Part shown: positions 9,486 to 61,109 of the stretch, one piece after another
Layout: each line of letters starts with the position of its first letter
How positions within the stretch are numbered: the stretch's first letter is position 1
From: Candidatus Methanoperedens sp.
GTDB lineage: Archaea; Halobacteriota; Methanosarcinia; Methanosarcinales; Methanoperedenaceae
Reading direction: 5' to 3'
Length of the DNA stretch: 64,000 bases
Assembly: GCA_028715885.1 (NCBI GenBank)
Contig: JAQUQX010000001.1
Coordinates: 62,001-126,000, forward strand
Program-made: the position numbers and the translations under genes
Notes under the pieces: generated by a model
What the model was told of the DNA's origin: nothing
Databases searched by the model: none
What the model saw: the letters and a program-made list of their open reading frames with translations, nothing else

Positions 9486-9597
9486 ACATATCGAACCAAA
9501 AACAAATAAGGGCTGAACACGTTATTAGCTTGCTCAATATGGTAGAAAGGAGTCGTGAATAGCTATGAGCGCACGTCTGCTTTCAGGAGAAAAAACA

Positions 9598-14520: not shown

Positions 14521-15486
14521 TTAAGACGCGGATATCCCCTGAAGCGAGGATAGCCGCTGGATGCGTTTTAGCATGTTGGGATGGGTGCTAAGCATTTCAA
14601 GTATCTTGTCTGTAGTCTTTACCCTTACGGGTCTTGTCCGCAGCGCCATCAGTTCCCTGGCGTCAATGGTTCCGCTCCCGTCAAGGTCAAGCTGTGACAA
14701 TTCCTTTATTTCACTGCCCGCAAGTGACGGGTCATTGGCGAAAAACGCCTTCATGCCCTCGATTTGTTTCAATGAATCCTTGGGCACCCGCGCGCTGCCG
14801 TAAACGAGTTTGTACAGGGCAGAGGCAAGGTGGTGAGGACTGTTCCCGAGCTTGACTGCGCCCTCGTCAGCATAGTATTCCCGGATTCTTGACACATACA
14901 GAACGAGGAGATTTGTAATTAAATATACAACAAAAGCCGTGATTCCGATAAGGACATTATTCCCGCGTTCCCTGTCGCCTGAAAACATGAAGTTCCATGC
15001 AAGATACCAGCAAATCATGGGGATAACGCTAATCATCGTTATAATCGCCACATCCCTGTGTTTCAGATGGGAAATTTCATGTCCCAGTACAGCCCTGAGT
15101 TCCTGTTCATTAAGAAGGCTCATTATCCCTTCAGTAACGCACACGCGCCCGTCGCTTGCCCACCTGCCGAATGCAAAAGCGTTGGGGATGGGTATCCTGG
15201 CAATGCCCACTCTGGGTTTTGGTATCCTTGCATCCCTTGCAAGCTCCGATACCATCCTGTGAAGGGCAGGATATTCCTGTTCGCTCACATACCGCACGCC
15301 CATAGACCATTCGACCATCTTTGGTCCTATCATGTACTGGATGAACATCATGACCGTAGCAAGAACAGCGTAGAATACAAATCCAGTTCCCTGTAGTCCC
15401 ATATAATTTATTGCAACTGCTATAAGTGCGTAGATTATTGCGAACAGCAATGTCATTACCAGATACAATCTCAATTTAAGCCACAT
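14521..15486 (-). CDS. htpX: HtpX-like M48 membrane metalloprotease with EF-hand insert
   Basis: A 321-residue zinc protease of the inner membrane. It has N-terminal membrane spans, PNAFAFGR, the active site LGHEISHLKHRD (His136, Glu137, His140), two more spans and EYYADEGA with the third zinc ligand. HtpX proteases degrade misfolded membrane proteins. Unusually, residues 267-278 (DLDGSGTIDARE) are a complete canonical EF-hand loop, with Asp, Asp, Ser, Thr, Asp and Glu at positions 1, 3, 5, 7, 9 and 12, located in the C-terminal part between the protease core and the HPNMLKRI segment. Calcium control of the protease is therefore possible. It follows another M48-type protease gene by 36 nt. 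Confidence 0.88.
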   Translation of the reverse strand: MWLKLRLYLVMTLLFAIIYALIAVAINYMGLQGTGFVFYAVLATVMMFIQYMIGPKMVEWSMGVRYVSEQEYPALHRMVSELARDARIPKPRVGIARIPIPNAFAFGRWASDGRVCVTEGIMSLLNEQELRAVLGHEISHLKHRDVAIITMISVIPMICWYLAWNFMFSGDRERGNNVLIGITAFVVYLITNLLVLYVSRIREYYADEGAVKLGNSPHHLASALYKLVYGSARVPKDSLKQIEGMKAFFANDPSLAGSEIKELSQLDLDGSGTIDARELMALRTRPVRVKTTDKILEMLSTHPNMLKRIQRLSSLQGISAS

Positions 15487-15522
15487 ATTTTATCACCTTT
15501 CTTTTCTCTTAGAATCAATCTC

Positions 15523-16203
15523 TTAGATAAATACTTTATCAACTTTGTTGCGCGCTGAAAAAAGCGCATCGTTTCCTGCGATTTCTGCAGCAAAGCGGTC
15601 TGCCCTGTATTCAAGTTCGGATTCTGATGAGGACGAAAATGTCATCAGCGCCAGTTGCTTCAGATACGGCATACCTGAATTATTACGTATATGCCATGCC
15701 TCATGCGCCAGTACAGCCTTAAGCTCATCATTATTCAGAAGCTCAAGAAGCCCGATAGATACAAAAATAGACCTGCCTGAAGCAAAAGCCCTGGGTACCG
15801 CAGAGTCAAAATAATAGACTTTTGCAGAGACAAGCCCGTCCACAAAATCCTGCGCCCATTTCATTACACTGCCAGCGGGCTTTGCATCAAGGCGTGTTAT
15901 CATTATCCTGTCGTAATACCGCAGCACTGCGAATATCAACACGGTGGAAATTACCACATAGGCAAGGTAGAGATAAAGTGTCAGCATATAGCTGCATTTC
16001 ATGATGTAAAATGTCGCAATTATTCCCAGCAAACTTGCAAGCTGTGCGGAAACAAATGTAATGAGCCTTTGTTTTGGTTTCTTGAGCATCAGGCTCGCTG
16101 CCAGTAAGGCAATTGAAATAACAACTAAAAATGCAACAAAGGGAGCATAATCGGATAGCTTCAGGCACAGCCCGAAGCAGTTTATTTCACCGGATATATT
16201 CAT
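15523..16203 (-). CDS. Membrane M48/M56-like metalloprotease
   Basis: A 226-residue protein with an N-terminal membrane region (four hydrophobic spans, about 18-95) and a protease part: VPRAFASGRSIFVS, LKAVLAHEAWHIRNN with the HExxH zinc site at 167-171, and ELEYRADRFAAE with the third ligand. It is shorter than HtpX and ends soon after the third ligand. The start overlaps the stop of a BlaI-like repressor gene by 4 nt (ATGA). A membrane zinc protease coupled to a BlaI repressor is the arrangement of BlaR1/BlaI and MecR1/MecI, so this may be the signal-transducing partner; no sensor domain is visible outside. Confidence 0.83.
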   Translation of the reverse strand: MNISGEINCFGLCLKLSDYAPFVAFLVVISIALLAASLMLKKPKQRLITFVSAQLASLLGIIATFYIMKCSYMLTLYLYLAYVVISTVLIFAVLRYYDRIMITRLDAKPAGSVMKWAQDFVDGLVSAKVYYFDSAVPRAFASGRSIFVSIGLLELLNNDELKAVLAHEAWHIRNNSGMPYLKQLALMTFSSSSESELEYRADRFAAEIAGNDALFSARNKVDKVFI

Positions 16204-16559
16204 TTCTTATCACTGTATTTTGAGAAATTTTCACGCGCAAGAGGTCCGAAAGTGTCCACGAGGCTGTCAAGGATTTTAGTGGTGATTTCGGTTGCAGCTT
16301 CTTCCTCGGAAAAAGCCGGCTCGTACACATATCGCACCCTGCCGTTTATGTTCTCCATTCGCCGCGTTGTATATCCAGCCTTGACCAGTCTGTCAAGGGT
16401 TCCGGCTACGCTTGTTAATGGAATATTAGTCTTTCCGGTCAGCTCCGACGTGGTCATCTCGCCATCGCTCCATAAAGCCCGTAGTATCGAAGCCTCAATA
16501 GGGCTGAAGAACTTGGTCAGACCCTCGTTTGAAATATTAATCTGGTCCAGCTTAACCAT
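16200..16559 (-). CDS. BlaI/MecI-like winged-helix repressor
   Basis: A 119-residue DNA-binding protein. The pattern LTKFFSPIEASILRALWSDGEMTTSELTGK, then TSVAGTLDRLVKAGYTTRR and GRVRYVYEPAFSEEEA, matches the winged helix and wing of BlaI/MecI/CopY repressors, followed by a helical dimerisation part. In bacteria such repressors are cut by a coupled membrane protease; here a membrane M48-type protease follows with a 4-nt overlap. The frame is open to 16679, but the ATG at 16559 avoids overlap with the riboflavin gene and gives the usual N-terminus. Family placement is from pattern and context. Confidence 0.75.
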   Translation of the reverse strand: MVKLDQINISNEGLTKFFSPIEASILRALWSDGEMTTSELTGKTNIPLTSVAGTLDRLVKAGYTTRRMENINGRVRYVYEPAFSEEEAATEITTKILDSLVDTFGPLARENFSKYSDKK

Positions 16560-16600
16560 AAGTTTACAATTGACGTAAAGGCTATTAAAGATTGCGGACG

Positions 16601-40507: not shown

Positions 40508-40580
40508 CAGATTCTTAATTGATTTAGTTTACACCAATCGTAAAGTTGGAGTTGTATTAAAGTAAATGAGAGGAACCTGA

Positions 40581-40991
40581 ATGAACAAAAAGCTCAAAAA
40601 CATGCTCGGCATCGGGATCGTGGCAGTACTTATACTATATCTCGGAGCGCAGAGCTTCAGCAACGCACTCTCATTTTACTATGAAGTCGGTGAGTTTGTG
40701 CAGAAAGCGGATTCACTGAATGGAAAAGTTGTGAACGTGAATGGCAGCATAGTAAAAGGTTCAACTATATGGGAACCTGAGAAAGCCAGGCTGACGTTCA
40801 AACTTACTGATAATAACGCTTCTATCGTAGTAGTATCGAACGAAGGCATGCCCGGAAATTACAAAGAGGGGATCCCGGCAGTGGTAACGGGCTATTTTAT
40901 AAACGGTACTTTCCAGGCAACCCAGGTAATCACAAAATGCCCCTCAAAATACGGCGGAGACCTTGATCACGGAGACCATAACGAAACGTAA
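40581..40991 (+). CDS. ccmE: Cytochrome c maturation protein CcmE, CXXXY type
   Basis: A 136-residue haem chaperone with one N-terminal membrane anchor (GIGIVAVLILYLGA) and an OB-fold outside domain with VVNVNGSIVKGS. It ends with TQVITKCPSKYGGD: Cys120 and Tyr124 give the CXXXY motif that replaces the HXXXY haem-linking His of E. coli CcmE, as known for archaea and some bacteria. A His-rich tail (DHGDHNET) follows. It opens the ccm run and is 12 nt from ccmF, so haem is handed to the CcmF ligase. Confidence 0.93.
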   Translation: MNKKLKNMLGIGIVAVLILYLGAQSFSNALSFYYEVGEFVQKADSLNGKVVNVNGSIVKGSTIWEPEKARLTFKLTDNNASIVVVSNEGMPGNYKEGIPAVVTGYFINGTFQATQVITKCPSKYGGDLDHGDHNET

Positions 40992-41003
40992 AGGAGAATT
41001 TTA

Positions 41004-43004
41004 ATGGAATTTGGAGAAACAGCACTGACCATCGCATTGATAATGAGCATATACGCGCTTGTGGCTCACATAATCGGGATATGGAAAAAGAAAGATGAAC
41101 TTTTCGACAGCGCAAGGATTGCCGTTATTGGAATCGCAGTGCTTCTCACGGTAGCATCCATCTGGCTCTTTAATCTCTTCATTACCCGCAACTTCCAGTA
41201 TGAATATGTAGCCATATACAGCAGCACGGATTTACCGATGGCTTATACTCTCTCTGCATTCTGGGCAGGCGCCGACGGGTCGCTGCTGCTCTGGGCATGG
41301 CTGATATCCATTTATATTGCGATTATCGCTGTGAAGGGAAAATCATACGATAACCTGATTAAACATGCAATGCCCGTAATCCTTATCACCCTCACCTATT
41401 TCATTTACATGCTGCTCACGGTATCACGTCCATTCAGGATGCTTGATTTCATACCCGCGGACGGGAACGGGCTGAATCCACTGCTTCAGGACCCCGGCAT
41501 GTTCTTCCATCCCCCCACGCTTTTCTGGGGCTATGCCGGCGTGATAATCCCATTCGCCCTGATGATTGCAGGCATTTATCTATCAGATGATACATGGACG
41601 TATCGCGCTCGCCGCTGGGCGCTGTGGGCATGGCTCGGTCTGGCTCTCGGTAACATGTTCGGGAGCTACTGGGCTTATACGGTGCTCAACTGGGGCGGGT
41701 TCTGGGGCTGGGACCCCGTTGAGAACGCCTCGTTCCTTCCCTGGCTCACTTTGACCGCTTTCTACCACAGCACCATGATAACTGAGCGTAAAGGCGGCAT
41801 GAAGTTCTGGAATATCCTGCTCATCCTTTTCACATGGGAACTAACGGTGTACGGGACACTGCTCACGCGGAGCGGAATCATCGCTTCTGTCCATACCTTC
41901 GGGCAGTCTGTCACCGCGCCGTATTATATCAATTATATGATAGTGGTGCTTGCTGTTACGCTTATACTTGTGGCATGGAAATATAACTCGATACAGAGCA
42001 AGAAGGTCTTTGAATCCTTTGTCTCTCGTGAAGCAAGTTTCCTCTACAACAACTGGATATTCATGGCAGCGACCGCTTCTGTGCTATGGGGGACGACATA
42101 TCCATTGCTCTCGGAGGCTTTCCGCGGGTACAAAGTAATGGTGGGTCCCAGTTTCTACAACCAGGTGAACGTGCCGCTTGGCATAGCGCTTCTTTTCCTG
42201 ATGGCGATATGTCCGCTTATTGCGTGGAGGAAAGCTTCGGTTTCTCATCTTAAGAGAAACTTTACAAAGCCTCTCGCAGCAGCAGTAATTGCAATGGTCA
42301 TCGCTTTTGCGCTGGGTATCCGTGATTTCTATGCTCTTTTTGTTGCAGTTGCGGGCACTGTACTTGTCGTATCCACCCACTTTCTGGATATATCCAGGAT
42401 AGTGAACAAGCAGAAAAAGCTCGACGATGCAGGAGCCCTGAAGAATATTTCACGAGCGTTCTGGAATAACCGCCGCACCTTTGGCGGTTACATGTGCCAT
42501 ATCGCAATTCTCATGATAATCGTAGCAGCCGCGGGCGCTGTAGTGTATGAGCAGATGGAGACCTTTAATATGAAGATTGGCGACACGGCTAGCGTAGGAC
42601 ACTATGATTTCAAGCTCATCAAGATAGAACAGTATACTAAAAATAACAGACAGGAAACAGTAGCGTTATTCAACGTTTATAAGAACGGAGAGAAGGTTCT
42701 CGACGATGCCGCAGCAAAAATGTACTATTACGCCAGGCAGGAGAGTACGAATGTCAAGCCAATGGCTTACACCGTGGGCATAGATGACCTGTATTTTTCA
42801 GCTCAGGCTATCACTACTGACCACGTTACTGTGAAACTAAAGGTCATGCCCCTCATGTTCCTGATGTGGATAGGGGGATTCTACGTGCTGATACTTGGAA
42901 TCCTGATATGCATATCAACAGTTGTACCAATAAGGGAAAAGAGAATATCTGATAATATAAATATAAGCAAAAATATTAAAAAAACAACAACGGAGATTGT
43001 ATGA
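41004..43004 (+). CDS. ccmF: Cytochrome c haem lyase subunit CcmF
   Basis: A 666-residue membrane protein with about 15 spans. The WWD haem-handling segment is present as LNWGGFWGWDPVENASFLPW, and His residues in GMFFHPPTLFWGY and VHTFGQ are candidates for haem ligands. CcmF attaches haem to CXXCH of apocytochromes with CcmH. The last codons overlap the following gene by 4 nt. CcmA, B and C are not in this window. Confidence 0.95.
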   Translation: MEFGETALTIALIMSIYALVAHIIGIWKKKDELFDSARIAVIGIAVLLTVASIWLFNLFITRNFQYEYVAIYSSTDLPMAYTLSAFWAGADGSLLLWAWLISIYIAIIAVKGKSYDNLIKHAMPVILITLTYFIYMLLTVSRPFRMLDFIPADGNGLNPLLQDPGMFFHPPTLFWGYAGVIIPFALMIAGIYLSDDTWTYRARRWALWAWLGLALGNMFGSYWAYTVLNWGGFWGWDPVENASFLPWLTLTAFYHSTMITERKGGMKFWNILLILFTWELTVYGTLLTRSGIIASVHTFGQSVTAPYYINYMIVVLAVTLILVAWKYNSIQSKKVFESFVSREASFLYNNWIFMAATASVLWGTTYPLLSEAFRGYKVMVGPSFYNQVNVPLGIALLFLMAICPLIAWRKASVSHLKRNFTKPLAAAVIAMVIAFALGIRDFYALFVAVAGTVLVVSTHFLDISRIVNKQKKLDDAGALKNISRAFWNNRRTFGGYMCHIAILMIIVAAAGAVVYEQMETFNMKIGDTASVGHYDFKLIKIEQYTKNNRQETVALFNVYKNGEKVLDDAAAKMYYYARQESTNVKPMAYTVGIDDLYFSAQAITTDHVTVKLKVMPLMFLMWIGGFYVLILGILICISTVVPIREKRISDNINISKNIKKTTTEIV

Positions 43005-43423
43005 TGAAAAAAATAATTACAGCGTGGTTTTTCCTGCTTGTGCTTGCTGTCCCGGTACTGGCTGTGACAGAGGAAGAAATCACAGCAAACCTGAACTGTC
43101 CCGACCAGGGGGGGTGTACAATGATCGCGATTGATTGCACATGCCCAAGCGCGCTTGAGTTGAAAGATAAAGTCAGGGCAATGCTCGACCAGGGTCTTTC
43201 CGAGAAACAGATTTACAATAAACTTGTGGCAGAGTACGGAAAAGGCGTTCTTGCCACGCCGCCCAAAGAAGGATTTGACTGGATAGTATGGCTTGCTTTG
43301 CCTGCCGGGGTCATCGTGGGCGGAGTTGTTGTATATAAAATCAGCAGGAAAAGAATGGATGAGAACGAGGAATTTGAATTAGAATATGAAAAGTTCTTGC
43401 AGGAGAGAGAAAAACATGAATAA
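43001..43423 (+). CDS. ccmH: CcmH-like thiol protein, copy 1
   Basis: A 140-residue protein with signal peptide, outside domain and one C-terminal span (WIVWLALPAGVIVGGVVVY). The helical part KDKVRAMLDQGLSEKQIYNKLVAEYGKGVLATPP is classic CcmH. The redox Cys differ from the LRCxxC of bacteria: CPDQGGC and, a few residues later, DCTC. It would reduce apocytochrome Cys before haem ligation. Translation is coupled to ccmF (ATGA) and to the next gene (8-nt overlap). Confidence 0.9.
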   Translation: MMKKIITAWFFLLVLAVPVLAVTEEEITANLNCPDQGGCTMIAIDCTCPSALELKDKVRAMLDQGLSEKQIYNKLVAEYGKGVLATPPKEGFDWIVWLALPAGVIVGGVVVYKISRKRMDENEEFELEYEKFLQEREKHE

Positions 43424-45062
43424 ATTATTATCAATTTTTATAGTACTGGTCATTTTCGGCAGCGCCGCTTCCGCGGCTGAGATCAATGGCAATGTTGTAT
43501 CTTTCGGGAAAAAGCTTGCCGACCAGAAAGTTACGCTGAGCGGAGTAAATGCCACGCAGAACGCTGATACAGGTGTTGTTTATAATTTCAAACCACTCTC
43601 GGATACGACAACAGATAAGGATGGAAATTATGCCTTTAAGGATCTCAACGACGGTATGTACCGTGTCAACGTAACATACAATGACATAACTTATGGAGAA
43701 AATATCGGTCTTCGGGGGAAAGCCATAGTGGATTTCAATCTCTCTGAAAAGATCGAAGGATACGTACTGAAAGTGAATAATACTCTTGAAGGGGTAGCTG
43801 TGCGCCTCATGGATGAGACCGGGATCGAGGTAATGAGCATTGTTACTAATAAAACAGGAAAATATTCGTTTAACAAGGTCAATGCCGGGAAGAGTTATAT
43901 GGTGCAGGCGAATTATGCTGATGTACCCTATACAAAACAGGTGAATGCATCAGAAAAAGCTAATTTCACAGTTTACGAATCCACAAAAAATGGGGATGTG
44001 CTCAGCGTAAGTATTGACCATATTGTCCTTTCTAAAGCGACAAATGGGATAAAAGTTGATGAATACGTTGAATTCGTGAATACCGGGGATAAAGCCTTTT
44101 TCAGTAAAGACAGGGCATATGTCGGCATTTCAACACCAGAGGGTATAACAAGGTTCCAGACCGATGCAATGGAATGCTGCCTGCAAAGGGAGAAGGATGC
44201 AGCATGGATAGACCCGATGAATCCGATATTACCTGGCGGCACATACACAGCACAGATATCATATGTTTTTAATCCGGAATCTTCAAAGAACCTGTTTTAC
44301 AAAGGTATGATATACAATACGTCCTACATTACGCTGTTATCTGACAAAAAGAACGGTTTCGGGATTGAAAGTAAATATGCTAAAAAGGAAATAGTCCAGA
44401 ACGAAGGGAAAGAGTTTGAAGTCTTAAGCTTCATGAAGGTTCCAAAAGACCAGAAACTGGATATCCAGATAACAGGGTATGTTCCATCAAATACAGGTAC
44501 CGGAGGAGATTTCGGTTATCTTATTCCTGTAGTGGCGGTAGTGTTAATCGGAGCAGTCGTGTACCCGCTGCTCAAGAATAAAATTGGCAAAAAGCGAGGA
44601 AGACGCTTTGTTAAAACAGTGCCTGCTGCAGATGTTTCGATTGATGAGCCGCAGGAAGCAGATGGAATTATCCAGCAGCCGGATGTTGTTTCGGAAAATA
44701 CCGCCGGAAAAGACATAGGTGAAATGTCATTCGAGGAACTGTTGGCTTGTAAGAACGCTGCATTTGAATCTATCCTTGCTCTTGAAAATAAATTCAATGC
44801 GGGAGAAATTACGGAAAAAGAGTACAAAGAACTCAAGAAAGAATGCAAAGAAAATGCAACGCTTGTCCTGAAACAGTTAAAGGAAGCATCATTAAACCTT
44901 GATCTTAACCAGCCTGTTTTGGAACTTGAAAAAATGATAGCGCATATAGGCGACATAGATATTCTTGAAGAGCTGCTGGAACGGGAAAAAGAGGGAGACA
45001 ACAGGAATGAACTGATGGAGATTATTGAACAGAGAATAGACGATATCGAACGCAATGAGTGA
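43416..45062 (+). CDS. MECC-motif membrane protein, copy 1
   Basis: About 548 residues: signal peptide, two carboxypeptidase-regulatory-like beta domains (about 20-185, with DKDGNYAFKDLNDGMYRV), a further beta domain with the Cys pair in AMECCLQ (Cys254, 255), a membrane span (LIPVVAVVLIGAVVYPLL), then an inside helical tail with GEITEKEYKELKKE. The last three parts are paralogous to the protein at 45520. Location in the ccm run suggests a role with apocytochrome or thiol relay, comparable in position to CcmI, but no sequence likeness to CcmI. ATG 43416 is chosen for its signal peptide. Confidence 0.75.
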   Translation: MNKLLSIFIVLVIFGSAASAAEINGNVVSFGKKLADQKVTLSGVNATQNADTGVVYNFKPLSDTTTDKDGNYAFKDLNDGMYRVNVTYNDITYGENIGLRGKAIVDFNLSEKIEGYVLKVNNTLEGVAVRLMDETGIEVMSIVTNKTGKYSFNKVNAGKSYMVQANYADVPYTKQVNASEKANFTVYESTKNGDVLSVSIDHIVLSKATNGIKVDEYVEFVNTGDKAFFSKDRAYVGISTPEGITRFQTDAMECCLQREKDAAWIDPMNPILPGGTYTAQISYVFNPESSKNLFYKGMIYNTSYITLLSDKKNGFGIESKYAKKEIVQNEGKEFEVLSFMKVPKDQKLDIQITGYVPSNTGTGGDFGYLIPVVAVVLIGAVVYPLLKNKIGKKRGRRFVKTVPAADVSIDEPQEADGIIQQPDVVSENTAGKDIGEMSFEELLACKNAAFESILALENKFNAGEITEKEYKELKKECKENATLVLKQLKEASLNLDLNQPVLELEKMIAHIGDIDILEELLEREKEGDNRNELMEIIEQRIDDIERNE

Positions 45063-45091
45063 ACATGCAGGCGAATGAGGGATAAAAACCA

Positions 45092-45523
45092 GTGTTAAGG
45101 ACAATTGTATTGTTCGTTCTGTTAATACCGCTAACATCAATTAACACCATACATGCGGATGAGGACATGACTTCTATCCTGATATGCCCCTGCGAATGCG
45201 CCATGGTTATCTCAACATGCGATTGTCCTACTGCAATACAGGTTAAAAAAGAGATTACCCAGATGAAGGAAAATGGCTTTTCAGAAAAACAGGTATTTTC
45301 AGCACTCCAGGCAGAGTACGGAAAGGAGATACAGGTACATCCTGAAAAAACAAGTTCAACATCATTATGGATAGGCGGTATATCATTGAGCATTTTATTT
45401 GTGTTTCTTGGATACATTTTTACCAGAAAACCCAGCAAGGATACTATACCTGATATAAAAAAATACGAACAACGGTTTGAAGAAGAATACAAGAAGTTTG
45501 TTCTCGAAATGGAGGAACTGTGA
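45092..45523 (+). CDS. CcmH-like thiol protein, copy 2
   Basis: A 143-residue paralogue of the protein at 43001: signal peptide, Cys-rich site LICPCECAMVISTCDCPTA, helical part with KKEITQMKENGFSEKQVFSALQAEYGKEI, one span and a charged tail. The CPC-x-C...C-x-C site is like that of deltaproteobacterial CcmH proteins as I recall them. GTG start with AATGAGGG upstream at some distance. It overlaps the next gene by 4 nt (GTGA), so the same pair order as copy 1 is kept. Confidence 0.85.
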   Translation: MLRTIVLFVLLIPLTSINTIHADEDMTSILICPCECAMVISTCDCPTAIQVKKEITQMKENGFSEKQVFSALQAEYGKEIQVHPEKTSSTSLWIGGISLSILFVFLGYIFTRKPSKDTIPDIKKYEQRFEEEYKKFVLEMEEL

Positions 45524-46503
45524 AAATCGCTCTGAAGACCTTCATTCCCGTATTCCTGATACTGTTTTACTCAATAAGTATTATTTCAGCGGAAACCAAT
45601 GAGACTATTTCAGATGATGGACATAATCTGAGCAATCAGAGCTACGATATAAGGGTTGTTCTCGACCATATTTTCATTTCAAAGAAAGACAATTCTCTTG
45701 AGGTATCTGAAGTCGTAGTATTCAGGAATGAGGGGCAGGAGATTTATTACAGCAAGGGTAACCATACTTTCTTTGCCATATCAACCCCGCAGGATATAAA
45801 AAACCTGAAAACCCAGGCGATGGAGTGCTGCCTTGTGCAGGAAGAAGGATCGGTGCTTATGGACCCGATGCAGGCTGTTAAGCCGGGTGATAACTTCCAG
45901 ATGCAGGTATCGTATACACTTCTTTCCCGAAGTTCAGAGTATGTATTCAATAAAAGCGCCATATACAATACCACGTCTCTTTCGATATTCGTTGATAGAA
46001 AAGGAGGACTGGATCCCGGAGGAGCGTATGAGACTTTAACACTTGGCGGTGTTGAGTATGACGTTATTCCTTTTAAAGATCTTAAGGCAGGGGAATCTGT
46101 TCGTATTCCGATTAAAATGACTGGTAAGCCGGATTACTTTTATGCAGGAATCGGTATCATGCTGATCTTTTCACTCGGAATGGTTTACCATTTCAGGGGT
46201 AAAATCCTGAGGAAAAGAAAGGAATATACCCTGGATGAACTTGATCTTGAGAAAAGAAAGATTTTCCAGGCAATCCACGGATTTGAAAAACATGCAGGGG
46301 ATCTAAAATCGCAAGAGTACTTGAGATTAATGGATGAATACAGGCAGAAAGCAATCCAGATATTTATTAAAATAGATAAAATAAAAAATAAAGGTCAGCC
46401 AGAACATTTAAAAGGAATGGATGAAACGCAAACAAAGACCACTAAAACTAATCAGGAGGGTTTGGAGTGTCAAGATCAAAAAAGCATAAAGGAAAAATGT
46501 TGA
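45520..46503 (+). CDS. MECC-motif membrane protein, copy 2
   Basis: A 327-residue paralogue of the protein at 43416, without the two N-terminal regulatory-like domains. It has a signal peptide, the beta domain opening YDIRVVLDHIFISKKDNSLEVSE, the Cys pair in AMECCLVQ (Cys103, 104), one span and an inside helical tail with SQEYLRLMDEYRQKA. The conserved Cys pair in both copies may form a vicinal disulphide or metal site. The end overlaps the cupredoxin gene by 37 nt. Confidence 0.75.
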   Translation: MKIALKTFIPVFLILFYSISIISAETNETISDDGHNLSNQSYDIRVVLDHIFISKKDNSLEVSEVVVFRNEGQEIYYSKGNHTFFAISTPQDIKNLKTQAMECCLVQEEGSVLMDPMQAVKPGDNFQMQVSYTLLSRSSEYVFNKSAIYNTTSLSIFVDRKGGLDPGGAYETLTLGGVEYDVIPFKDLKAGESVRIPIKMTGKPDYFYAGIGIMLIFSLGMVYHFRGKILRKRKEYTLDELDLEKRKIFQAIHGFEKHAGDLKSQEYLRLMDEYRQKAIQIFIKIDKIKNKGQPEHLKGMDETQTKTTKTNQEGLECQDQKSIKEKC

Positions 46504-46931
46504 AAGAAAAACAAACGAAAAAATTGCCAATCATGAGCATTTTGTTCATGGTTATCGTTATTGCGATTTTCGGCGCTGCATTATATTTGATCATAAGCAA
46601 ATCAGCAACATTGGAACCTGTGAACAAAGATGCCATTAAAATGACCATCACCATGGCAGGCTTTGAACCAAATACGATCAGAGCAAAAGTCGGGCAGCCT
46701 GTTACCATAAATCTCATAAATCCGGATAATTCGCATCACACAGACGGCGGTGGAATGCATAACTTCATCCTGACATCGGGATTGGCAAACCTGAATATCA
46801 CTGTCCTGCCTGAAAGCCAGGAAGTTTTCACTTTCACGCCAACACAGAAAGGCGAATATCACTGGTACTGTGACATATGCTGTGGAGGCAAGGAGAATCC
46901 CGCCATGCATGGAACACTCATAGTGGCTTGA
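46467..46931 (+). CDS. Membrane-anchored cupredoxin
   Basis: A 154-residue protein with a basic N-terminus, one membrane anchor (IMSILFMVIVIAIFGAALYLII) and a cupredoxin domain: ITMAGFEPNTIRAKVGQPVTI, GMHNFILTS with the first His, and HWYCDICCGGKENPAMHG with Cys and Met/His ligands. The C-x3-C spacing recalls the CuA site of cytochrome oxidase subunit II and nitrous oxide reductase, but the intervening His of CuA is missing. It likely carries copper or electrons outside the membrane. GTG start with GGAGG upstream. Confidence 0.85.
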   Translation: MSRSKKHKGKMLKEKQTKKLPIMSILFMVIVIAIFGAALYLIISKSATLEPVNKDAIKMTITMAGFEPNTIRAKVGQPVTINLINPDNSHHTDGGGMHNFILTSGLANLNITVLPESQEVFTFTPTQKGEYHWYCDICCGGKENPAMHGTLIVA

Positions 46932-46941
46932 AGGAGGTACA

Positions 46942-47637
46942 ATGGCAATCGACCCACAAACGTTAACACTTCCACTTGTAATTACGGCAGGTTTAATTGA
47001 TGGTTTTAACCCCTGCGCTTTTGCAGTCCTGCTGCTTTTTATAACCTTTACAATGGGCATGCTACAGATGCAGGCAAATTACAGGTATGGATTGATGAAA
47101 GTGGGTTCGATATACATTAGCGGAATATTTGTAACCTACGTGTTAATAGGCGTGGGCATCCTGAGCGCCATATCCTTCTTTTCCACAACACACGCCGTGG
47201 GCAAGGCTGCTGCTTTTATTTCTATGATACTCGGAGTAGTAATAATGAAGGATTACTTCATACCGGGCGGGTTCGGGCTGGTAATACCGGAGAGCATGCA
47301 CACTACGATAAACAACTGGATAAGGAGAACCTCAGCGCCCGGTGTCTTCGGAGCCGGAGTCCTTGTCGGTCTTTGCACAGTGCCGTGCAGCGGAGGCATT
47401 TATCTAGCGGTCATAGGTTTGTTGTCACTGCAATCAACGCTGGCTCAGGGCATATTGTACCTTCTGCTCTACAACCTGATGCTTATCGTGCCTCTTGTTG
47501 CAGTTCTTCTTGCCTCATCAAACAGGAAAGTGGTAGATAAAATGGTTGCATGGCAGTCAAGGAATAAAAATGAGGTGAGACTGTTAATGGGCTCATTCAT
47601 GGTAGCGATGGGATTCGTGATACTGTTGATAATATAA
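46942..47637 (+). CDS. ccdA: CcdA/DsbD-type thiol transporter
   Basis: A 231-residue membrane protein with six spans that brings reducing power from inside to outside. The two redox Cys are in GFNPCAFAVLL and LCTVPCSGGIYL, in the expected spans. Such proteins keep CcmH/CcmG-type thiols reduced for cytochrome c assembly and also feed other envelope thiol proteins. It starts 10 nt after the cupredoxin with GGAGG before the ATG. Confidence 0.93.
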   Translation: MAIDPQTLTLPLVITAGLIDGFNPCAFAVLLLFITFTMGMLQMQANYRYGLMKVGSIYISGIFVTYVLIGVGILSAISFFSTTHAVGKAAAFISMILGVVIMKDYFIPGGFGLVIPESMHTTINNWIRRTSAPGVFGAGVLVGLCTVPCSGGIYLAVIGLLSLQSTLAQGILYLLLYNLMLIVPLVAVLLASSNRKVVDKMVAWQSRNKNEVRLLMGSFMVAMGFVILLII

Positions 47638-47650
47638 CAAGAAGGATGAT

Positions 47651-48130
47651 ATGAAATCAAAATTTATTTTCAGTGCAATTGCAATTGCAGCGTTCTTAAT
47701 AATCGCCTACTTTATGTCCGGTGACGCACAAACATTAAACAAAACGCCTGGCGAAAAACCAGCAAGCTGGGATAATAGTAAACCGAAAATTGAACTTCCG
47801 GAATTCGCCCAAAAAACCGGGCGTGTGGCTGAAGCTTACATCTATGCAGTGCAGAATCAGGACAAGCTCATGTACCTTGCCTGTTACTGTGGATGTGCAG
47901 GCATGCAGCACTCAGACAAACTCCTTTCACATAAGAGCCTGAAGGAGTGTTACATCAAACCGAATGGAGAATATGAGCCTCATGCATCGGAATGCAAGCT
48001 GTGCAACGACATAACACTGGAAGCAAGGGATCTATTAATGAAAGGATATTCACTGAAAGAGGTCAGGGAAAAAATTGATAATGAGTATTCAGGCAGGGGT
48101 GTAGGAACAAATACATCATTGCCGCCATAG
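47651..48130 (+). CDS. PCYCGC-like envelope protein
   Basis: A 159-residue protein with N-terminal membrane anchor or signal segment and a domain with YLACYCGCAGMQH, then KECYIK and ECKLCNDI; this is the layout of PCYCGC-motif proteins, which have no defined biochemical role and often sit in copper- or stress-related clusters. The final helices ARDLLMKGYSLKEVREKIDNEY look like the helical part of CcmH. It follows ccdA by 13 nt and may receive electrons from it. Confidence 0.8.
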   Translation: MKSKFIFSAIAIAAFLIIAYFMSGDAQTLNKTPGEKPASWDNSKPKIELPEFAQKTGRVAEAYIYAVQNQDKLMYLACYCGCAGMQHSDKLLSHKSLKECYIKPNGEYEPHASECKLCNDITLEARDLLMKGYSLKEVREKIDNEYSGRGVGTNTSLPP

Positions 48131-48186
48131 GATACTGACTTTACACTAAACGTAAAATAAATATATAAATAAAATAATAAGGAGAA

Positions 48187-48387
48187 ATGAAAAATATGCA
48201 AATAGACCCAATATGTGGAATGCAGGTAGATGAGAATACAGCGCAGTATAAGACAGAATATAAAGGCAAAACCTATTATTTCTGCGCACCCGGATGCAAG
48301 AAAGCATTTGATTCAGAGCCAGAAAAATACCTGAAAAGCAAACCTGTGGGTATGGGCGAGAAAAAACCCTGGTGGAAGATCTGGTAA
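48187..48387 (+). CDS. YHS-domain metal-binding protein, 66 aa
   Basis: A YHS domain alone: IDPICGMQV, KGKTYYFCAPGCKKAFDSEP, with Cys as metal ligands, and a tail ending PWWKIW. YHS/TRASH domains bind copper or other soft metals in sensors, P-type ATPases and small chaperones. The protein at 54807 ends in almost the same Trp-rich tail. GGAG lies before the ATG. It begins 56 nt after the PCYCGC gene. Confidence 0.9.
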   Translation: MKNMQIDPICGMQVDENTAQYKTEYKGKTYYFCAPGCKKAFDSEPEKYLKSKPVGMGEKKPWWKIW

Positions 48388-48415
48388 TTTTTTTGCAGAA
48401 ATTAGAGGTGCATTA

Positions 48416-48676
48416 ATGGACAATACGAAGAACCAAAGTATGAATGAAGGATTTTTCAGCAGGCACAGGCATACATTAATGATGGTGCTCGGCTGCATAA
48501 TCCCGCTTGTGCTCCTGGGGATTTTATGGATTGCAGGAGTCTCGCAGAACATACTATCATTTGGGATACTGCTGCTTTGCCCTATAATGCATCTTGTAAT
48601 GATGAAAAATATGAAGCATGGTACGCAGAACCCTGAAAGCCAGATTGATGAAAACAAAAAAGAGGAACTTACATGA
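48416..48676 (+). CDS. Small membrane protein (DUF2933-like)
   Basis: An 86-residue protein with a soluble N-terminus, FFSRHRHTLMMVLGCIIPL, two spans and CPIMHLVMMKNMKHG. The Cys-Pro-x-Met-His and Met/His-rich end is typical of DUF2933 proteins that co-occur with copper-resistance genes. Its end overlaps the lipoprotein gene by 4 nt (ATGA). Confidence 0.7.
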   Translation: MDNTKNQSMNEGFFSRHRHTLMMVLGCIIPLVLLGILWIAGVSQNILSFGILLLCPIMHLVMMKNMKHGTQNPESQIDENKKEELT

Positions 48677-49068
48677 GAATATCAGGAATAATAATAACTT
48701 TATTCGTATTGATGGCAGTAGCTATCAGTGGCTGCTTATCAGGAGACGAGAAGCCTCCCGCTGATTTATTGGAGCCGAGGGAGAATTCGGAAGCAGATGT
48801 TAAAATATCAGTCACTTATTTGCCTGATATTACCGATGCCACTGCTTTTGAAATTAAAGTCACCGCCCATAAGAACTATAACGATGATTTCAAGAATAAC
48901 TCCTACCTGCGGGATTCCAGTGGCAAAATATATCAACCTCTGTCTTATGAGGGCGAAGGCGGGCATCATGCAAGCGGTACACTTCGATTTCCTAAGATTG
49001 AAAGCAAGAGATTTGAACTTGTGATTAAGGATATTGCAGGAGTAAATGAGAGGGTCTTTAAGTGGTAA
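48673..49068 (+). CDS. Lipoprotein-like secreted protein
   Basis: A 131-residue protein with signal peptide and lipobox VAISGC (Cys about 23), then an Ig-like beta domain of about 100 residues ending FELVIKDIAGVNERVFKW. I recognise no family for the domain. It contains a His-His-x-x-G stretch (GGHHASG) which might bind metal. Coupled by overlap to the genes on both sides. Confidence 0.7.
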   Translation: MRISGIIITLFVLMAVAISGCLSGDEKPPADLLEPRENSEADVKISVTYLPDITDATAFEIKVTAHKNYNDDFKNNSYLRDSSGKIYQPLSYEGEGGHHASGTLRFPKIESKRFELVIKDIAGVNERVFKW

Positions 49069-49561
49069 GCATATGCCGGGAATCAGTATCAAAAGCCTTT
49101 TAAAAAATCCGTTTGTTTTCGGAGCAAGTATAGGGATACTTGTAATACTTTTCAACATCTCTATCGCTTCCTTAGCAGAAGGTTCACTTGAGAAAGGATA
49201 TCAGGTTTTCCTTACTAATGGAATATTCGTGTACCTGATTCCCGTAGCAGTAGGCGTTCAGATGGGGCTTTTCAGATACCACAGGAATATTACTACTGGA
49301 AATATAGGCAGTTCAGAAAAAATGGGCATGGCAGGTTCAGCCACTTCATCGCTGACAATGGTGGCATGCTGCCTGCATCATGTGAGCGACCTGCTGCCCG
49401 CGGTAGGTTTTATCCTCGCAGCATCTTCTTTTCTTATCCGGTATAAGGATGCCATAATCACAATTGGATTGCTGGTAAACGTGATTGGGAGCGTTTATAT
49501 TGCAAAGGCAATCCTCAAAGACAGGACAATTATTGCAGAAGCGAAAAGATCCACGGTCTAA
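49046..49561 (+). CDS. Four-span membrane protein with CCxHH motif
   Basis: A protein of up to 171 residues with four spans. The third opens with SLTMVACCLHHVSDLLPAVGF, where adjacent Cys-Cys and His-His suggest a metal site in or near the membrane. Proteins with similar (M/V)ACCxHH blocks occur in bacterial metal-resistance clusters, as I recall, without known activity. Start is uncertain: ATG 49046 has GGAG at good spacing but overlaps the lipoprotein gene by 23 nt; ATG 49073 would avoid this. Confidence 0.72.
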   Translation: MRGSLSGKHMPGISIKSLLKNPFVFGASIGILVILFNISIASLAEGSLEKGYQVFLTNGIFVYLIPVAVGVQMGLFRYHRNITTGNIGSSEKMGMAGSATSSLTMVACCLHHVSDLLPAVGFILAASSFLIRYKDAIITIGLLVNVIGSVYIAKAILKDRTIIAEAKRSTV

Positions 49562-49572
49562 CAGGTGAAATT

Positions 49573-50169
49573 ATGAAAAAAGTTTATATTATAATTATTG
49601 TGGCTGCTGTGCTTGCAGTATTTTTTTTATACTCATCGGATGCAAAGAAAAGCATCTTCACAGAGAAAGTGGGTGACATGACTCTGACCAGATACGAAAC
49701 TGGCGAGACGGCAGCACAGCAGGTATCGAACATGTACGGTTTGAAAGCCATACCCATTTCGAAAGCTTATTCAGCAGTGTATAAGAGCAGAAAAGGCACC
49801 ATGCGTATCTGGGCAGTAGAAGCTCCGGATCATAATGCTGCAAATGATGCATTTAATGCCATGAACTCGATGCTTGGAGGTTCAACAGGGCACGAAGGAC
49901 ATGAATACTCGGGTGATGTGGAACAGACAGACTCCCATAAAGGGCACGGCGATGCAGGTATTATGAATGAAAACTTCACTAAACCCGTAAAATTGGAAAT
50001 CATGGAGTTTGTAAAGCCCGAAGTATATACGATGTACGCAAATAATGCAGTCAATTATTATTATTTTAAAATGAATTACAATATGGGGAGAGTTTACTGG
50101 ATAATTTTTGATTCACCGGATATGGACTATCAGGTTTCAATTGTGAAACAGGCGGTAATGGATATATAG
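49573..50169 (+). CDS. LGDM-family envelope protein 1, with His insert
   Basis: A 198-residue protein with N-terminal anchor (YIIIIVAAVLAVFFLY) and an outside domain opening EKVGDMTLTRYETGETA. It is the first of three tandem paralogues. Only this one has a His-rich insert at about 107-125 (His 107, 110, 122, 125), a likely metal-binding loop, before the common C-terminal part with VYWIIFDSPDMDYQ. Family unknown to me. Confidence 0.72.
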   Translation: MKKVYIIIIVAAVLAVFFLYSSDAKKSIFTEKVGDMTLTRYETGETAAQQVSNMYGLKAIPISKAYSAVYKSRKGTMRIWAVEAPDHNAANDAFNAMNSMLGGSTGHEGHEYSGDVEQTDSHKGHGDAGIMNENFTKPVKLEIMEFVKPEVYTMYANNAVNYYYFKMNYNMGRVYWIIFDSPDMDYQVSIVKQAVMDI

Positions 50170-50177
50170 GTGAGACC

Positions 50178-50708
50178 ATGAAGAAAAATATATCTGAAAT
50201 ATACCTTGCAATATTCATAATCGCAGTAATAGCTATTACCGTATTCCTGTATCAGGAGACACAGGAGAAGAATGCCTTCGGCATTTTCCCTGAAAAACTG
50301 GGCGATATGACCATCGCACTCTACAGGGACGGAGATGCGGCTATGGCAGATGTGAAAGGGCTGCATGGCAATAATCCTGATGTAAAAATCGAGAATGCCT
50401 ATATAGCAAACTACAGGAGTACACCTGCCAGCAAAGCCAAATTCTGGGTATCGGAGTCGAAAACAAAAGGCGAAGCCGTATCCCTTCTTGAGTCGATGAA
50501 CAGCAGGGTGGGAAAAACAGGGATGTTCAGTGATTCCACACCATTGAACATAGAAGGAATTACTGTTTATTTTGTGAGCGGGAAACCGGAAGTGGGTCTG
50601 TACCATTACTTCTATGCCAGAGATAAAAGGGTGTTCTGGATACAGATAGACAACCCGGATGAAGCTTACAGACTCAACTTCGTGAAAGAATCTATAAAAC
50701 GGATTTAG
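50178..50708 (+). CDS. LGDM-family envelope protein 2
   Basis: A 176-residue paralogue: anchor, PEKLGDMTIALYRDGDAA, ANYRSTPASKAKFWVSES, SMNSRVGKTGMF, and the end RVFWIQIDNPDEAYRLNFVKES. It keeps the same order of blocks as its neighbours without the His insert. It starts 8 nt after protein 1. Confidence 0.72.
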   Translation: MKKNISEIYLAIFIIAVIAITVFLYQETQEKNAFGIFPEKLGDMTIALYRDGDAAMADVKGLHGNNPDVKIENAYIANYRSTPASKAKFWVSESKTKGEAVSLLESMNSRVGKTGMFSDSTPLNIEGITVYFVSGKPEVGLYHYFYARDKRVFWIQIDNPDEAYRLNFVKESIKRI

Positions 50709-50712
50709 CGCA

Positions 50713-51222
50713 ATGAAACGCAGAAGAAATGGTTTTTATCTGATTGCATTTTCAGTCATAATAATTATTGTTTTGGCATTGCTGTTATACCAGAGTGAGA
50801 CGGCGCTTTTCCCGGATAAGCTCGGCGACATGGAACTTAAACTTCACAGGGAGGGGGACATAGCGATTCGCGAGATTAAAGGCTCCCATGAAGCGAAGGA
50901 TAATGTCAATCCCGGAGAAGCCCATGTGGCGCGCTACAGGAACAGCGCGGGCAGCAGGGCGACGGTATCTTTAACAGTGGCAGAGACAAACCAGAGGGCA
51001 GTGGAAACAGTGGAGAACATGAATCGCGGGATGGGCGGGATGTTCAGCAAACCTGAAACACTTGAAATAAACGGTTCAAAAATATATTACACTGAAGGCG
51101 GCGGCGAATATCACTATTATTATCCGAAGGGCAGCTTTGTTGTCTGGATAGCCATCAGCAATCCCGACAGGGCATACCAATCAGCGCTTATGGATGAATC
51201 AGTCAAAAGCATAGGTGGATGA
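50713..51222 (+). CDS. LGDM-family envelope protein 3
   Basis: A 169-residue paralogue with PDKLGDMELKLHREGDIA, ARYRNSAGSRATVSL, NMNRGMGGMF and VVWIAISNPDRAYQSALMDES. It starts 4 nt after protein 2 and its stop overlaps the methyltransferase gene by 4 nt, so all three and the enzyme form one unit. Confidence 0.72.
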   Translation: MKRRRNGFYLIAFSVIIIIVLALLLYQSETALFPDKLGDMELKLHREGDIAIREIKGSHEAKDNVNPGEAHVARYRNSAGSRATVSLTVAETNQRAVETVENMNRGMGGMFSKPETLEINGSKIYYTEGGGEYHYYYPKGSFVVWIAISNPDRAYQSALMDESVKSIGG

Positions 51223-51986
51223 CCATGAGAAAATTTTTTAGCGACCTGATTGCGATTGGATTTATTGTGCTCATGGCTTTAACTTTCCTTTCAGGTATAT
51301 CCGTGCTTCTTGGCTATGAAAAACCTGAAAATATCGAAGGCTTGGGGCATCACGACCTCACAGAATATGCCTATAGCAACTGGGGAGCGACACTTCTTAG
51401 CGTTGGGATTTTTTCTTTCTTCGTGCTCAGCTTCCTTACCCCGCTGAAGAAGCAGAACTGGCGGACACTGGGAATATACGAGGCGTTCATAATAGCGCTG
51501 TTCTCGGAGATGTACGGCTTCCCGCTTACGATATATGTTCTCTCTTCGCTTTTCGGACTGAATCTCTCTTTAGGGCATGCAGAGGGACACCTGCTCGGGG
51601 TGCTGCTTTCAAAAGCAGGTGTAATGAGCATGGAAAGTGCATGGGCGCTGGTGATGGTGACAAGCAGTGCCGTTATATTCTTTGGTCTATTCCTGATGTC
51701 AAAAGGCTGGAGCATGATACATTCGTCTCACGGAGAACTTGTGACTGATGGCGTTTACAGATATGTAAGGCATCCCCAGTATCTCGGTCTTATTATACTG
51801 ACAGTGGGTTTGCTCATCCAGTGGCCTACGATAATTACCCTTGCGATGTGGCCCGTTCTTATTCTGATGTATTACAGGCTCGCTAAAAAAGAAGAAAGGG
51901 AAGCGACAGATGCATTCGGCGAGAGATACGAAGAGTATAGACGGCAGACTCCGATGTTTTTCCCGTCAATTAGACCTCTCTTTTAA
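51219..51986 (+). CDS. Isoprenylcysteine methyltransferase-like membrane enzyme
   Basis: A 255-residue membrane protein with about six spans. The C-terminal half shows DGVYRYVRHPQYLGLIIL, then KKEEREATDAFGERYEEYRR, the SAM-binding block of the ICMT/PEMT/NnrU-like group. Such enzymes methylate a carboxyl, amine or thiol at the membrane face; homologues often lie in copper clusters. The substrate is unknown. Its 3' end overlaps the convergent gene at 51970 by 17 nt. Confidence 0.82.
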   Translation: MTMRKFFSDLIAIGFIVLMALTFLSGISVLLGYEKPENIEGLGHHDLTEYAYSNWGATLLSVGIFSFFVLSFLTPLKKQNWRTLGIYEAFIIALFSEMYGFPLTIYVLSSLFGLNLSLGHAEGHLLGVLLSKAGVMSMESAWALVMVTSSAVIFFGLFLMSKGWSMIHSSHGELVTDGVYRYVRHPQYLGLIILTVGLLIQWPTIITLAMWPVLILMYYRLAKKEEREATDAFGERYEEYRRQTPMFFPSIRPLF

Positions 51987-52340: not shown

Positions 52341-52508
52341 ATGCCAATAGATCCTGTGTGCTGGATGCACGTTGAGAGAAACTCCGAATACACAGCCGAA
52401 TACAACGGGCAGAAGTACTACTTTTGCTCGCTCAAGTGCAAAAAAAAAATTGAAAAAGCCCCTCAAAAGTACCTTGGCGTGAAAAGCCCGATGAAGATGC
52501 CGGAATGA
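52341..52508 (+). CDS. YHS-domain protein, 55 aa
   Basis: A stand-alone YHS domain: IDPVCWMHV, NGQKYYFCSLKCKKKIEKAP, then a short tail KMPE. Trp replaces the usual Gly after the first Cys. Cys residues of the C...C-x3-C pattern would bind a soft metal. It stands alone with its own promoter (see the inverted repeat) and is too short to be found by length filters. Confidence 0.85.
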   Translation: MPIDPVCWMHVERNSEYTAEYNGQKYYFCSLKCKKKIEKAPQKYLGVKSPMKMPE

Positions 52509-54806: not shown

Positions 54807-54974
54807 ATGGCTATAGACCCAGTATGTAAAATGGATGTCGAAGAAGGAGGCGCGCAGCACAGGCTGGAATATCAGGGAAAAACCTACTATTTCTGCAGCG
54901 CAGCCTGCAGGAATGCCTTTGAGAAGAGCCCGGGGAAATACTTGAAGGAGAAGCCGTGGTGGAAGTTCTGGTAA
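54807..54974 (+). CDS. YHS-domain protein, 55 aa
   Basis: A YHS domain with IDPVCKMDV and QGKTYYFCSAACRNAFEKSP, and a tail ending PWWKFW as in the protein at 48187. GGTGGT precedes the ATG, and CTTATAAAG at 54765 could be the TATA box. It is followed 8 nt later by the surface protein gene of the ABC cluster, so the metal protein may be transcribed with that transporter. Confidence 0.88.
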   Translation: MAIDPVCKMDVEEGGAQHRLEYQGKTYYFCSAACRNAFEKSPGKYLKEKPWWKFW

Positions 54975-58138: not shown

Positions 58139-58807
58139 ATGAAGATAATAGAAACAAAGGAACTGAAGAAAATATACCGCTTGGGAAAGATAGAGGTGAA
58201 TGCGCTCAACGGCGTTGATGTTTCAGTAGAAAGCGGCGAATTCGTTGCTATCATGGGACCCTCTGGCTCCGGCAAGTCGACTTTTCTCAATATGGTAGGT
58301 ATGCTCGATACCCCGACTTCGGGAGAAATACATATAAATGGTTATGATGTGACAAAAATTAGCAGCAGCATGAGGGCGGAGTACAGGCTGAAGCACATAG
58401 GCTTTGTGTTCCAGTTTTTTAATTTATTCATGGAGCTGACTGCCCTCGAAAACGTGATGTTTCCCATGATGCTATCGAATCATCCTTTTTACGAAGAGAG
58501 GGCAGAAGAACTGCTTGATATGGTCGGGCTGAAAGCGAGGATAAACCACCTGCCCTCCGAGCTTTCAGGAGGGGAACAGCAGCGTGTGACCATCGCGAGG
58601 GCGCTGGCAAATAAGCCAAAGCTATTGCTTACAGACGAACCAACGGCAAACCTTGATACTAAAACCACAAAAGAGATAATGGAACTGTTTTTAAGGCTCA
58701 ATAAAGAGCAGCGTCAGACCATAATCATGGTTACGCATAACCCTGAACTCGGCGCTATGGCGGACAGGATAATTCATTTCAGGGATGGTGTGGTGGTGGA
58801 GGAATAA
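58139..58807 (+). CDS. MacB/LolD-type ABC ATPase
   Basis: A 222-residue ATPase with Walker [11 protein letters not shown]-loop FVFQFFNLF, signature LSGGEQQR, Walker [13 protein letters not shown] and switch VTHNPE. It is of the LolD/MacB group that pairs with FtsX-type permeases. ATG right after the stop of permease 2, so the four genes from 54982 are one unit. Confidence 0.95.
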
Positions 58808-59544: not shown

Positions 59545-59713
59545 TTCTACATAGCTTCTACGTTGTAATGGTATAATACGTTGAGGTTAAAACGTGGATT
59601 ATAATCAATGCTCATTTGACAGGGAACTCAGAATTTCTCTGGCATGAATTGAGAGTTTAAAAAATATCAGGCAAAAATTTCCAAATTTAAAGCAAAACCT
59701 ACTTAACGTATCT

Positions 59714-59728
59714 TTACATGTAATGTAA
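59714..59728. promoter_or_regulatory. Inverted repeat TTACAT-GTA-ATGTAA
   Basis: A perfect 6-bp inverted repeat with 3-nt centre, 23 nt before the ATG of the Cys/His-rich protein and directly upstream of its AAGGATGTG ribosome site. It fits an operator for a dimeric repressor, for example a metal sensor. Confidence 0.5.
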
Positions 59729-59750
59729 AACATATAAGGATGTGAAACAA

Positions 59751-59934: not shown

Positions 59935-60300
59935 ATGGAACGAAAAACACTGTTCATAATCGGGGCTGTTCTGTTATTCGGGGCAGTTCTTGCAGCAGTG
60001 GCGTTGGCGCAAAATACCGACAGCCAAAATGCTGCTGATAATCATGAATGCACTCCTGAAATGATGAAGAATATGTCATCAAACAATGCTTCAGAAATGG
60101 CAAAGAATTGCACTCCTGAAATGATAAAATCGGGAAACTGTAAAAATATGCCTGATGGCGCAATGGCAGGATGCGGGTCAATGATGGCTAACACTAATAA
60201 TGTTACTGGAAATCATATGGCTGACCCGAGCCATTGCAGCAATATGAATTCAAGCATGGATTCGATGATGGGGACTGGAAAGCAAAAAACCATGGCGTAA
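59935..60300 (+). CDS. Met/Cys/His-rich secreted protein
   Basis: A 121-residue protein with signal segment (LFIIGAVLLFGAVLAAVALAQ) and an outside part rich in Met, Asn, Ser and Cys: CTPEMMKNM and CTPEMIKSG form a short repeat, later GCGSMM and CSNMNSSMDSMM. Methionine clusters with Cys and His are typical of copper-binding envelope proteins. Family unknown to me. It is 6 nt before the archaeosortase gene. Confidence 0.72.
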   Translation: MERKTLFIIGAVLLFGAVLAAVALAQNTDSQNAADNHECTPEMMKNMSSNNASEMAKNCTPEMIKSGNCKNMPDGAMAGCGSMMANTNNVTGNHMADPSHCSNMNSSMDSMMGTGKQKTMA

Positions 60301-61107: not shown

Positions 61108-61109
61108 CC

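Follow-up and report, generated by a model that had tools for sequence, protein, structure and literature searches.

The subject of this analysis is a run of cytochrome c maturation and metal- or thiol-related genes, together with a palindromic operator and a candidate regulator associated with it, in a 64,000-nucleotide (nt) stretch of DNA, here called the window, from contig JAQUQX010000001.1 of a 'Candidatus Methanoperedens' genome (G000; 2.09 Mb, 78 contigs, 95% complete). The close database matches of the window are all Methanoperedens records. The run, at positions 40581-51986, comprises 17 genes (Table 1), all on the forward strand, one more than were counted in a preliminary description made from the sequence alone. 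That description placed the named genes on one strand, with most gaps below 60 nt and with 4-nt overlaps, and in this it was right: gaps reach 56 nt at most, neighbouring genes share 4 nt at four junctions and, in the mechanical gene calls, 23-38 nt at three others, and the order recurs across the genus and is not a product of chance. The run pairs an accessory set of System I (cytochrome c maturation) genes with an envelope metal/thiol module.

Table 1. Positions in the window of the genes, operator sites and regulators discussed in the text.
Feature	Position	Strand	Evidence or remark
BlaI/CopY-like regulator (16200-16556) and two M48-type membrane proteases	14521..16556	-	Candidate regulon member
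Operator just before the BlaI/CopY-like gene	16563..16579
Operator TTTACACCAATCGTAAA before ccmE	40528..40544
CcmE, archaeal CXXXY type (CPSKY)	40581..40991	+	PF03100 3.8e-20; haem-binding motif of System I present
CcmF with WWD motif (WGGFWGWDP), accessory copy	41004..43004	+	PF16327 6.8e-50, PF01578; agrees with System I
CcmH1	43001..43423	+	PF03918 5.8e-17; profile matches solved CcmH 2kw0, 2hl7
MECC1: two carboxypeptidase-regulatory-type Ig domains, MECC domain, transmembrane helix, cytoplasmic helical tail	43386..45062	+	Pfam, alignment
CcmH2 (CPCEC...CDC)	45092..45523	+	PF03918 1.5e-11; alignment
MECC2: beta-sandwich, invariant ECC, transmembrane helix, helical hairpin	45520..46503	+	Alignment; AlphaFold2 model, pLDDT 75.6
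Membrane-anchored cupredoxin, CuA-derived; invariant HxDGGGxH, YC(D/N)xCCGG...PxMxG	46467..46931	+	PF13473 1e-12; alignment; CuA domains in PDB
CcdA-like thiol electron carrier	46942..47637	+	PF02683 (DsbD_TM/CcdA) 3.1e-7
PCYCGC-family anchored Cys-rich protein	47651..48130	+	PF13798 6e-15
Operator TTTACACTAAACGTAAA before yhs, then TATA-like box	48140..48156
YHS-domain metal-binding protein	48187..48387	+	PF04945 1.3e-20
DUF2933-like membrane protein	48416..48676	+	PF11666 1.4e-6
Lipoprotein, no family	48673..49068	+	Pfam null; kept beside CCxHH in relatives
CCxHH membrane protein, no family	49046..49561	+	Pfam null; conserved pairing
LGDM1, His-rich loop	49573..50169	+	Alignment
LGDM2	50178..50708	+	Alignment
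LGDM3	50713..51222	+	Alignment
ICMT/PEMT-like methyltransferase	51219..51986	+	PF04140 2.5e-9
Operator ~205 nt before the Met/Cys-rich protein gene	59713..59729
Secreted Met/Cys-rich protein (CTPEMMKNM...)	59935..60300	+	In relatives a related protein is encoded ahead of ccmE
AsnC-type helix-turn-helix and TRASH regulator	63589..64206 (window end 64000 cuts N-terminal part)	-	PF13404 1e-11, PF24273 1.2e-12, PF08394 5.4e-7

The first six genes concern haem ligation. Both CcmH proteins have the cysteine pair and three-helix domain of that family, with a cysteine spacing that is not the classical CXXC (C-x5-C in CcmH1, CPCEC in CcmH2). CcmABC are not encoded with the run, CcmB being single-copy and on another contig, so that the set is accessory, a point that the preliminary description had wrong; the genome also holds a second CcmE (contig C6) and a second CcmF (contig C12), the latter 36% identical to the CcmF of the window. 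The streamlined CcmABCEF system of Methanosarcina acetivorans (PMC9084895) likewise has a CXXXY CcmE, a WWD CcmF and CcmABC encoded elsewhere, to which Methanoperedens adds a second CcmE and CcmF, two CcmH, the MECC partners and a metal-type operator. CcmDHI have been called universally absent from archaea (PMC9084895), and CcmH homologues have already been reported in ANME-2d, a group of anaerobic methanotrophic archaea (ANME), and in Ferroglobus/Geoglobus (PMC9012536, PMC4429474); the accessible portions of those two accounts do not mention the paired MECC, the metal module or the operator. The run might also be read as an NrfEFG-like haem lyase that serves one special cytochrome, NrfA for example, and carries the metal genes as passengers; this would fit the weak matches of CcmH1 and CcmH2 to NrfF and a CcmF paralogue proposed to be dedicated to ANME MHC-B (PMC9012536). 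We think it improbable, because full-length NrfA was found only in G002, G014, G017 and G024, and not in G000, and because the window has no CXXCH open reading frame.

MECC1 and MECC2 matched no CcmI or TPR family in profile searches. What they share with CcmI is a topology (extracytoplasmic domain, one transmembrane helix, cytoplasmic helical tail) and a SHOCT-like tail, and the occurrence of similar short tails in unrelated window proteins at 9565-11136 and 11222-12598 weakens the identification; that MECC may be a form of CcmI is kept as a lead. The MECC2 model, used in a structure search, matched nothing more specific than beta-sandwich proteins of general type (ribophorin I, M1 aminopeptidases), with TM-scores below 0.4. 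In one relative (G009, L129:6075-7316) MECC2 and the cupredoxin occupy a single open frame of 413 amino acids, either a fusion or a lost stop.

The remaining eleven genes form the metal/thiol module. The signatures of the cupredoxin are invariant in an alignment of sequences from Methanoperedens, Chloroflexi, Rokubacteria and Bacillus, and its profile matches the CuA domains of NosZ and COX2 in the PDB. Aligned with these, C135 and C139 form the CXXXC and H98 is the first histidine; the second histidine is lost, and an extra cysteine and the HxDGGG loop are present. Without the second histidine, the protein is CuA-derived and not a CuA protein. The closeness to NosZ and COX2 is what recommends the idea of a module for the assembly of a copper enzyme, either CuA oxidase or NosZ, beside its cytochrome partners, and the preliminary description had similarly proposed copper delivery to envelope enzymes. 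The genomes speak against this: COX2, the CuA oxidase subunit II, is missing from G000, it occurs in six of the 24 genus genomes searched (one of them without the cupredoxin) and does not track with the cupredoxin, and no NosZ exceeded the cut-off in 40 genomes, G000 included. We regard such an assembly role as very improbable. The cupredoxin-CcdA pair is found in many bacteria, and of 52 bacterial loci examined, a good number of which are short, 18 have a CPC/CPH P-type ATPase close by; a search for the cupredoxin on plasmids gave no match. In G000 the nearest gene for a CopA-type ATPase follows the ICMT gene at a distance of about 15.5 kb, and several relatives have one on the contig that carries the locus. 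A part in copper handling or resistance suits the module better than one in copper delivery to enzymes. A cupredoxin-DUF2933-ICMT set is CopA-linked and copper-induced in Alteromonas and others (PMC8478169), and the three genes travel together in a copper context in Methanoperedens as in the gammaproteobacterial merR-copA-cupredoxin-DUF2933-ICMT clusters; unlike those clusters, the archaeal run has CopA outside it, and its cupredoxin is preceded by ccm genes and followed by CcdA and PCYCGC. A Pfam search assigned no family to the lipoprotein, CCxHH or LGDM proteins. PCYCGC was considered as a third CcmH fold and set aside, the profile match having a probability of 36%, with no PDB sequence match and no CcmH among the structure matches. 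Two more small YHS open reading frames, below the 60-amino-acid cut-off and 48-52% identical to the YHS protein at 48187, lie at 52341-52508 and ~54807-54971, the second preceding a secreted protein and an FtsX/MacB-type ABC transporter (54982-58807).

The preliminary description suggested a search for the same gene order in other archaeal genomes. The 17 genes were mapped in 40 regions of 26 related genomes, which showed the order to be kept across the genus and, to a degree, in sister genera, with near-complete copies in, for example, G021 and G005 (two each), G009, G030 and G012; the absence of a conserved order, which would have spoken against a joint role, was not encountered. Adjacency in the mapped regions is kept both among haem genes (ccmH2-mecc2 29 times, ccmF-ccmH1 and ccmH1-mecc1 22 times each) and among metal genes (lipoprotein-ccxhh and ccxhh-lgdm1 22 times each, cupredoxin-ccdA and ccdA-pcycgc 20 times each, pcycgc-yhs 14 times). 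Between the two halves the junction is flexible but persistent: the gene 3' of mecc2 is the cupredoxin in 17 cases, yhs in six, pcycgc in three and the lipoprotein in three. In G001, G003 and G020 ccmH2-mecc2 stands with the yhs half alone, the only CcmF there being the distant one, from which it appears that ccmH2/mecc2 travels with the metal genes.

A second ccmF locus in the same genome (contig C12, L167) encodes CcmF, a thioredoxin-like protein, a NosR/NapH-like polyferredoxin, CcdA and PCYCGC, with another CcdA alongside, so that CcmF, CcdA and PCYCGC come together in two loci of one genome; the window has the cupredoxin in the position that the thioredoxin holds there. On one short contig of a related genus (L120), a PCYCGC gene and a CcmF of the second type accompany ccmE-ccmF-ccmH1 of the window type. 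Rokubacteria are a second lineage with an association of haem and copper genes: loci L052 and L080 combine ccmF, a CcmG-like thioredoxin, a CcmH-CcmI fusion, cupredoxin, CcdA and an LGDM-like open reading frame, with DUF2933 in the former and YHS in the latter. These comparisons bear on the reading that a copper-resistance island simply fell behind ccm and shares its metal promoter system, without any role in haem ligation, the ccm genes being included because stressed cytochromes need replacing. The resemblance of the metal module to bacterial copper clusters accords with such an island, as does the occurrence of ccmH2-mecc2 with yhs-lipo-ccxhh-lgdm1 in the absence of a window-type ccmE/F in G001, G003 and G020. 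It accords less well with the persistence of a ccmH2/mecc2-metal gene junction in 29 loci, where the next gene is one of four, with the independent joining of DUF2933, ccmF, ccmH, cupredoxin, CcdA and an LGDM-like gene in Rokubacteria, or with operators on ccmE itself, on ccmH2 as head gene and on the second ccmF locus, as described below. On balance an island of this kind is unlikely, though it is the strongest of the competing explanations.

The operator was first noticed as a palindrome in the pcycgc-yhs gap of relatives. The window contains it four times in the form TTTAC-N7-GTAAA (0.05 expected; 0 of 100 shuffles), and in the loci of relatives there are 108 sites in 566 kb, as against 1.4 in a mononucleotide shuffle. 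The next inner positions are R and Y in 106 of 107 distinct sites, and the operator is accordingly written TTTACR-N5-YGTAAA. All but five of the 108 sites could be assigned to a gene that they precede, most of them 6-70 nt from its estimated start. In relatives they stand before ccmE in 19 of 20 loci and before yhs in 20 of 24, before copA in both cases available (G011, G001), and before ccmH2 in runs that it heads. On the 5' side of ccmE a TATA-like box stands between tandem sites 29 bp apart. Across 31 genomes of the genus the strict pattern was counted 370 times versus 69 for a reversed control; most other families of the order have no excess over that control, and 11 short control loci (38 kb, mostly Methanoperedens) contain no operator. 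Within G000 the loose palindrome, at 10 sites versus 6 in the reversed control, shows no excess by itself, the stricter form giving 9 versus 1, and 7 of the 10 loose sites precede genes of regulon type, including both operons of the second ccmF locus; position, rather than a genome-wide loose count, carries the argument for an operator. The preliminary description had proposed joint control within one transcription unit. The first part is strengthened by the palindrome, which most relatives, like the window, have in front of both ccmE and yhs. The second needs amendment, because an internal operator and TATA-like box before yhs point to at least two promoters and two co-controlled units, and the run is probably not one simple transcript. 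A literature search, weak on subscription journals, found no account of the Methanoperedens locus or operator, and the palindromic operator is new in this analysis.

The candidate regulator is encoded at the edge of the window. In G000 its gene has an operator 6 nt before the start, and the same holds, at 5-9 nt before the ATG, for 25 of the 29 AsnC-TRASH copies whose start can be read. In the genus, 22 of 23 genomes with MECC and two of eight without have the regulator (Fisher p = 0.0002), and among other families of the order G034 alone has a regulator homologue, MECC and an excess of the operator. Operator, regulator and CcmH/MECC have largely one distribution. Among the known systems closest to this arrangement is CopR of Pyrococcus furiosus, a protein of AsnC/Lrp and TRASH plan with the motif TTNNCAWWWTGNNAA (PMC7830388). 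The two agree in domain plan, in half-sites (TTNNCA/TGNNAA), in an operator placed by a TATA-like box, in a presumptive site for auto-control and, in G011 and G001, in an operator before copA; the candidate Methanoperedens regulon differs in that it would take in cytochrome c maturation operons and a thiol branch.

The other regulator in the window is the BlaI/CopY-like protein encoded with two M48-type membrane proteases, a set that lies whole or in part between pcycgc and yhs in G005 and G022 (L038/L131, L134). It might be this repressor that binds the palindrome and senses thiol-reactive envelope damage, with AsnC-TRASH as only a target. Its gene is immediately preceded by an operator in the window, and by one at 7 nt in the loci of three relatives, and the TACA/TGTA half-sites resemble CopY/BlaI boxes; the spacing of the palindrome, on the other hand, differs from TACANNTGTA. 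The AsnC-TRASH protein is the better candidate, given the resemblance of the palindrome to the CopR motif and the presence of the operator at 25 of 29 AsnC-TRASH genes, and binding by the BlaI-like repressor seems to us unlikely.

The explanation that we prefer, and consider somewhat better than an even proposition, is that one branch of cytochrome c maturation and the handling of copper and thiols are together under the control of a copper-type sensor, as a metal-responsive regulon of the Methanoperedenaceae of which this locus would be one arm. In such a scheme the AsnC-TRASH regulator, a relative of CopR, would bind the palindrome, sense intracellular copper or a similar thiophilic metal, repress its own gene and activate its targets. 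Copper in the envelope would attack the thiols used for haem ligation, those of apo-cytochrome CXXCH motifs and the CcmH cysteines, and the response would be threefold: an extra haem lyase, in which CcmF works with two CcmH/MECC adaptors; a CcdA-fed thiol branch with the Cys-rich, CuA-derived cupredoxin where a CcmG thioredoxin is expected; and copper-binding proteins that lower the free metal. Many multihaem cytochromes could then still be matured under metal stress. We infer the binding by the regulator, copper as its effector and the protective role from sequence. A more specific version, that a copper-sensing AsnC-TRASH regulator directly controls the cytochrome c synthase and, under copper, has the archaeon change its haem ligation to a CcmH/MECC-assisted form with a thiol supply from CcdA and the cupredoxin, whose CxxCC site would replace the CcmG thioredoxin, is rather doubtful. 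The proposed logic resembles, by description, that of Rubrivivax CopI, a periplasmic blue copper protein stated to spare cytochrome c assembly (PMC6247083), where the regulator is of MerR type.

Several observations weigh against the regulon as we picture it. The copA gene of G000 has no operator with at most one mismatch in the region scanned, and the scan of the ccmABC locus of G000 found none either, so that only part of haem export and ligation would be controlled. The half-site spacer is 3 in P. furiosus CopR and 5 in the Methanoperedens operator; G034 has no operator at its own regulator promoter; and the BlaI/CopY-like regulator gene bears the operator as well. The co-occurrence test is a rough guide, the genomes being related and partly incomplete and the counts not independent. 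Copper as the signal is read from protein families, and TRASH and YHS proteins can also answer to mercury, silver and other metals.

Further genes lie outside the run. Paralogous geranylgeranyl-reductase-like proteins flank the metal genes at 52560-54395 and at L162:2501-4327, the window copy being fused to a methyltransferase domain. An archaeosortase-like membrane protein (our own reading, with no Pfam match) and a DUF63 protein are encoded at 60307-62245; in relatives a MoaD-like gene sits between the homologues of these two, and the trio lies directly 3' of ICMT in most.

Very many multihaem cytochromes sustain Methanoperedens, and this locus speaks to the questions of how archaea complete such proteins and why, among ANME, CcmH is retained in ANME-2d alone. 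Copper poisoning in bacteria is known to hit cytochrome c assembly, and an archaeal circuit tying the two together would, if true, be a direct counterpart. A named operator and a named regulator make copper-type metal control of haem ligation in these methane oxidisers testable. The abundance of Methanoperedens drops at higher copper loads in an enrichment (PMC11596795), and the regulon proposed here, if it exists, might matter to how sensitive freshwater methane removal is to copper.

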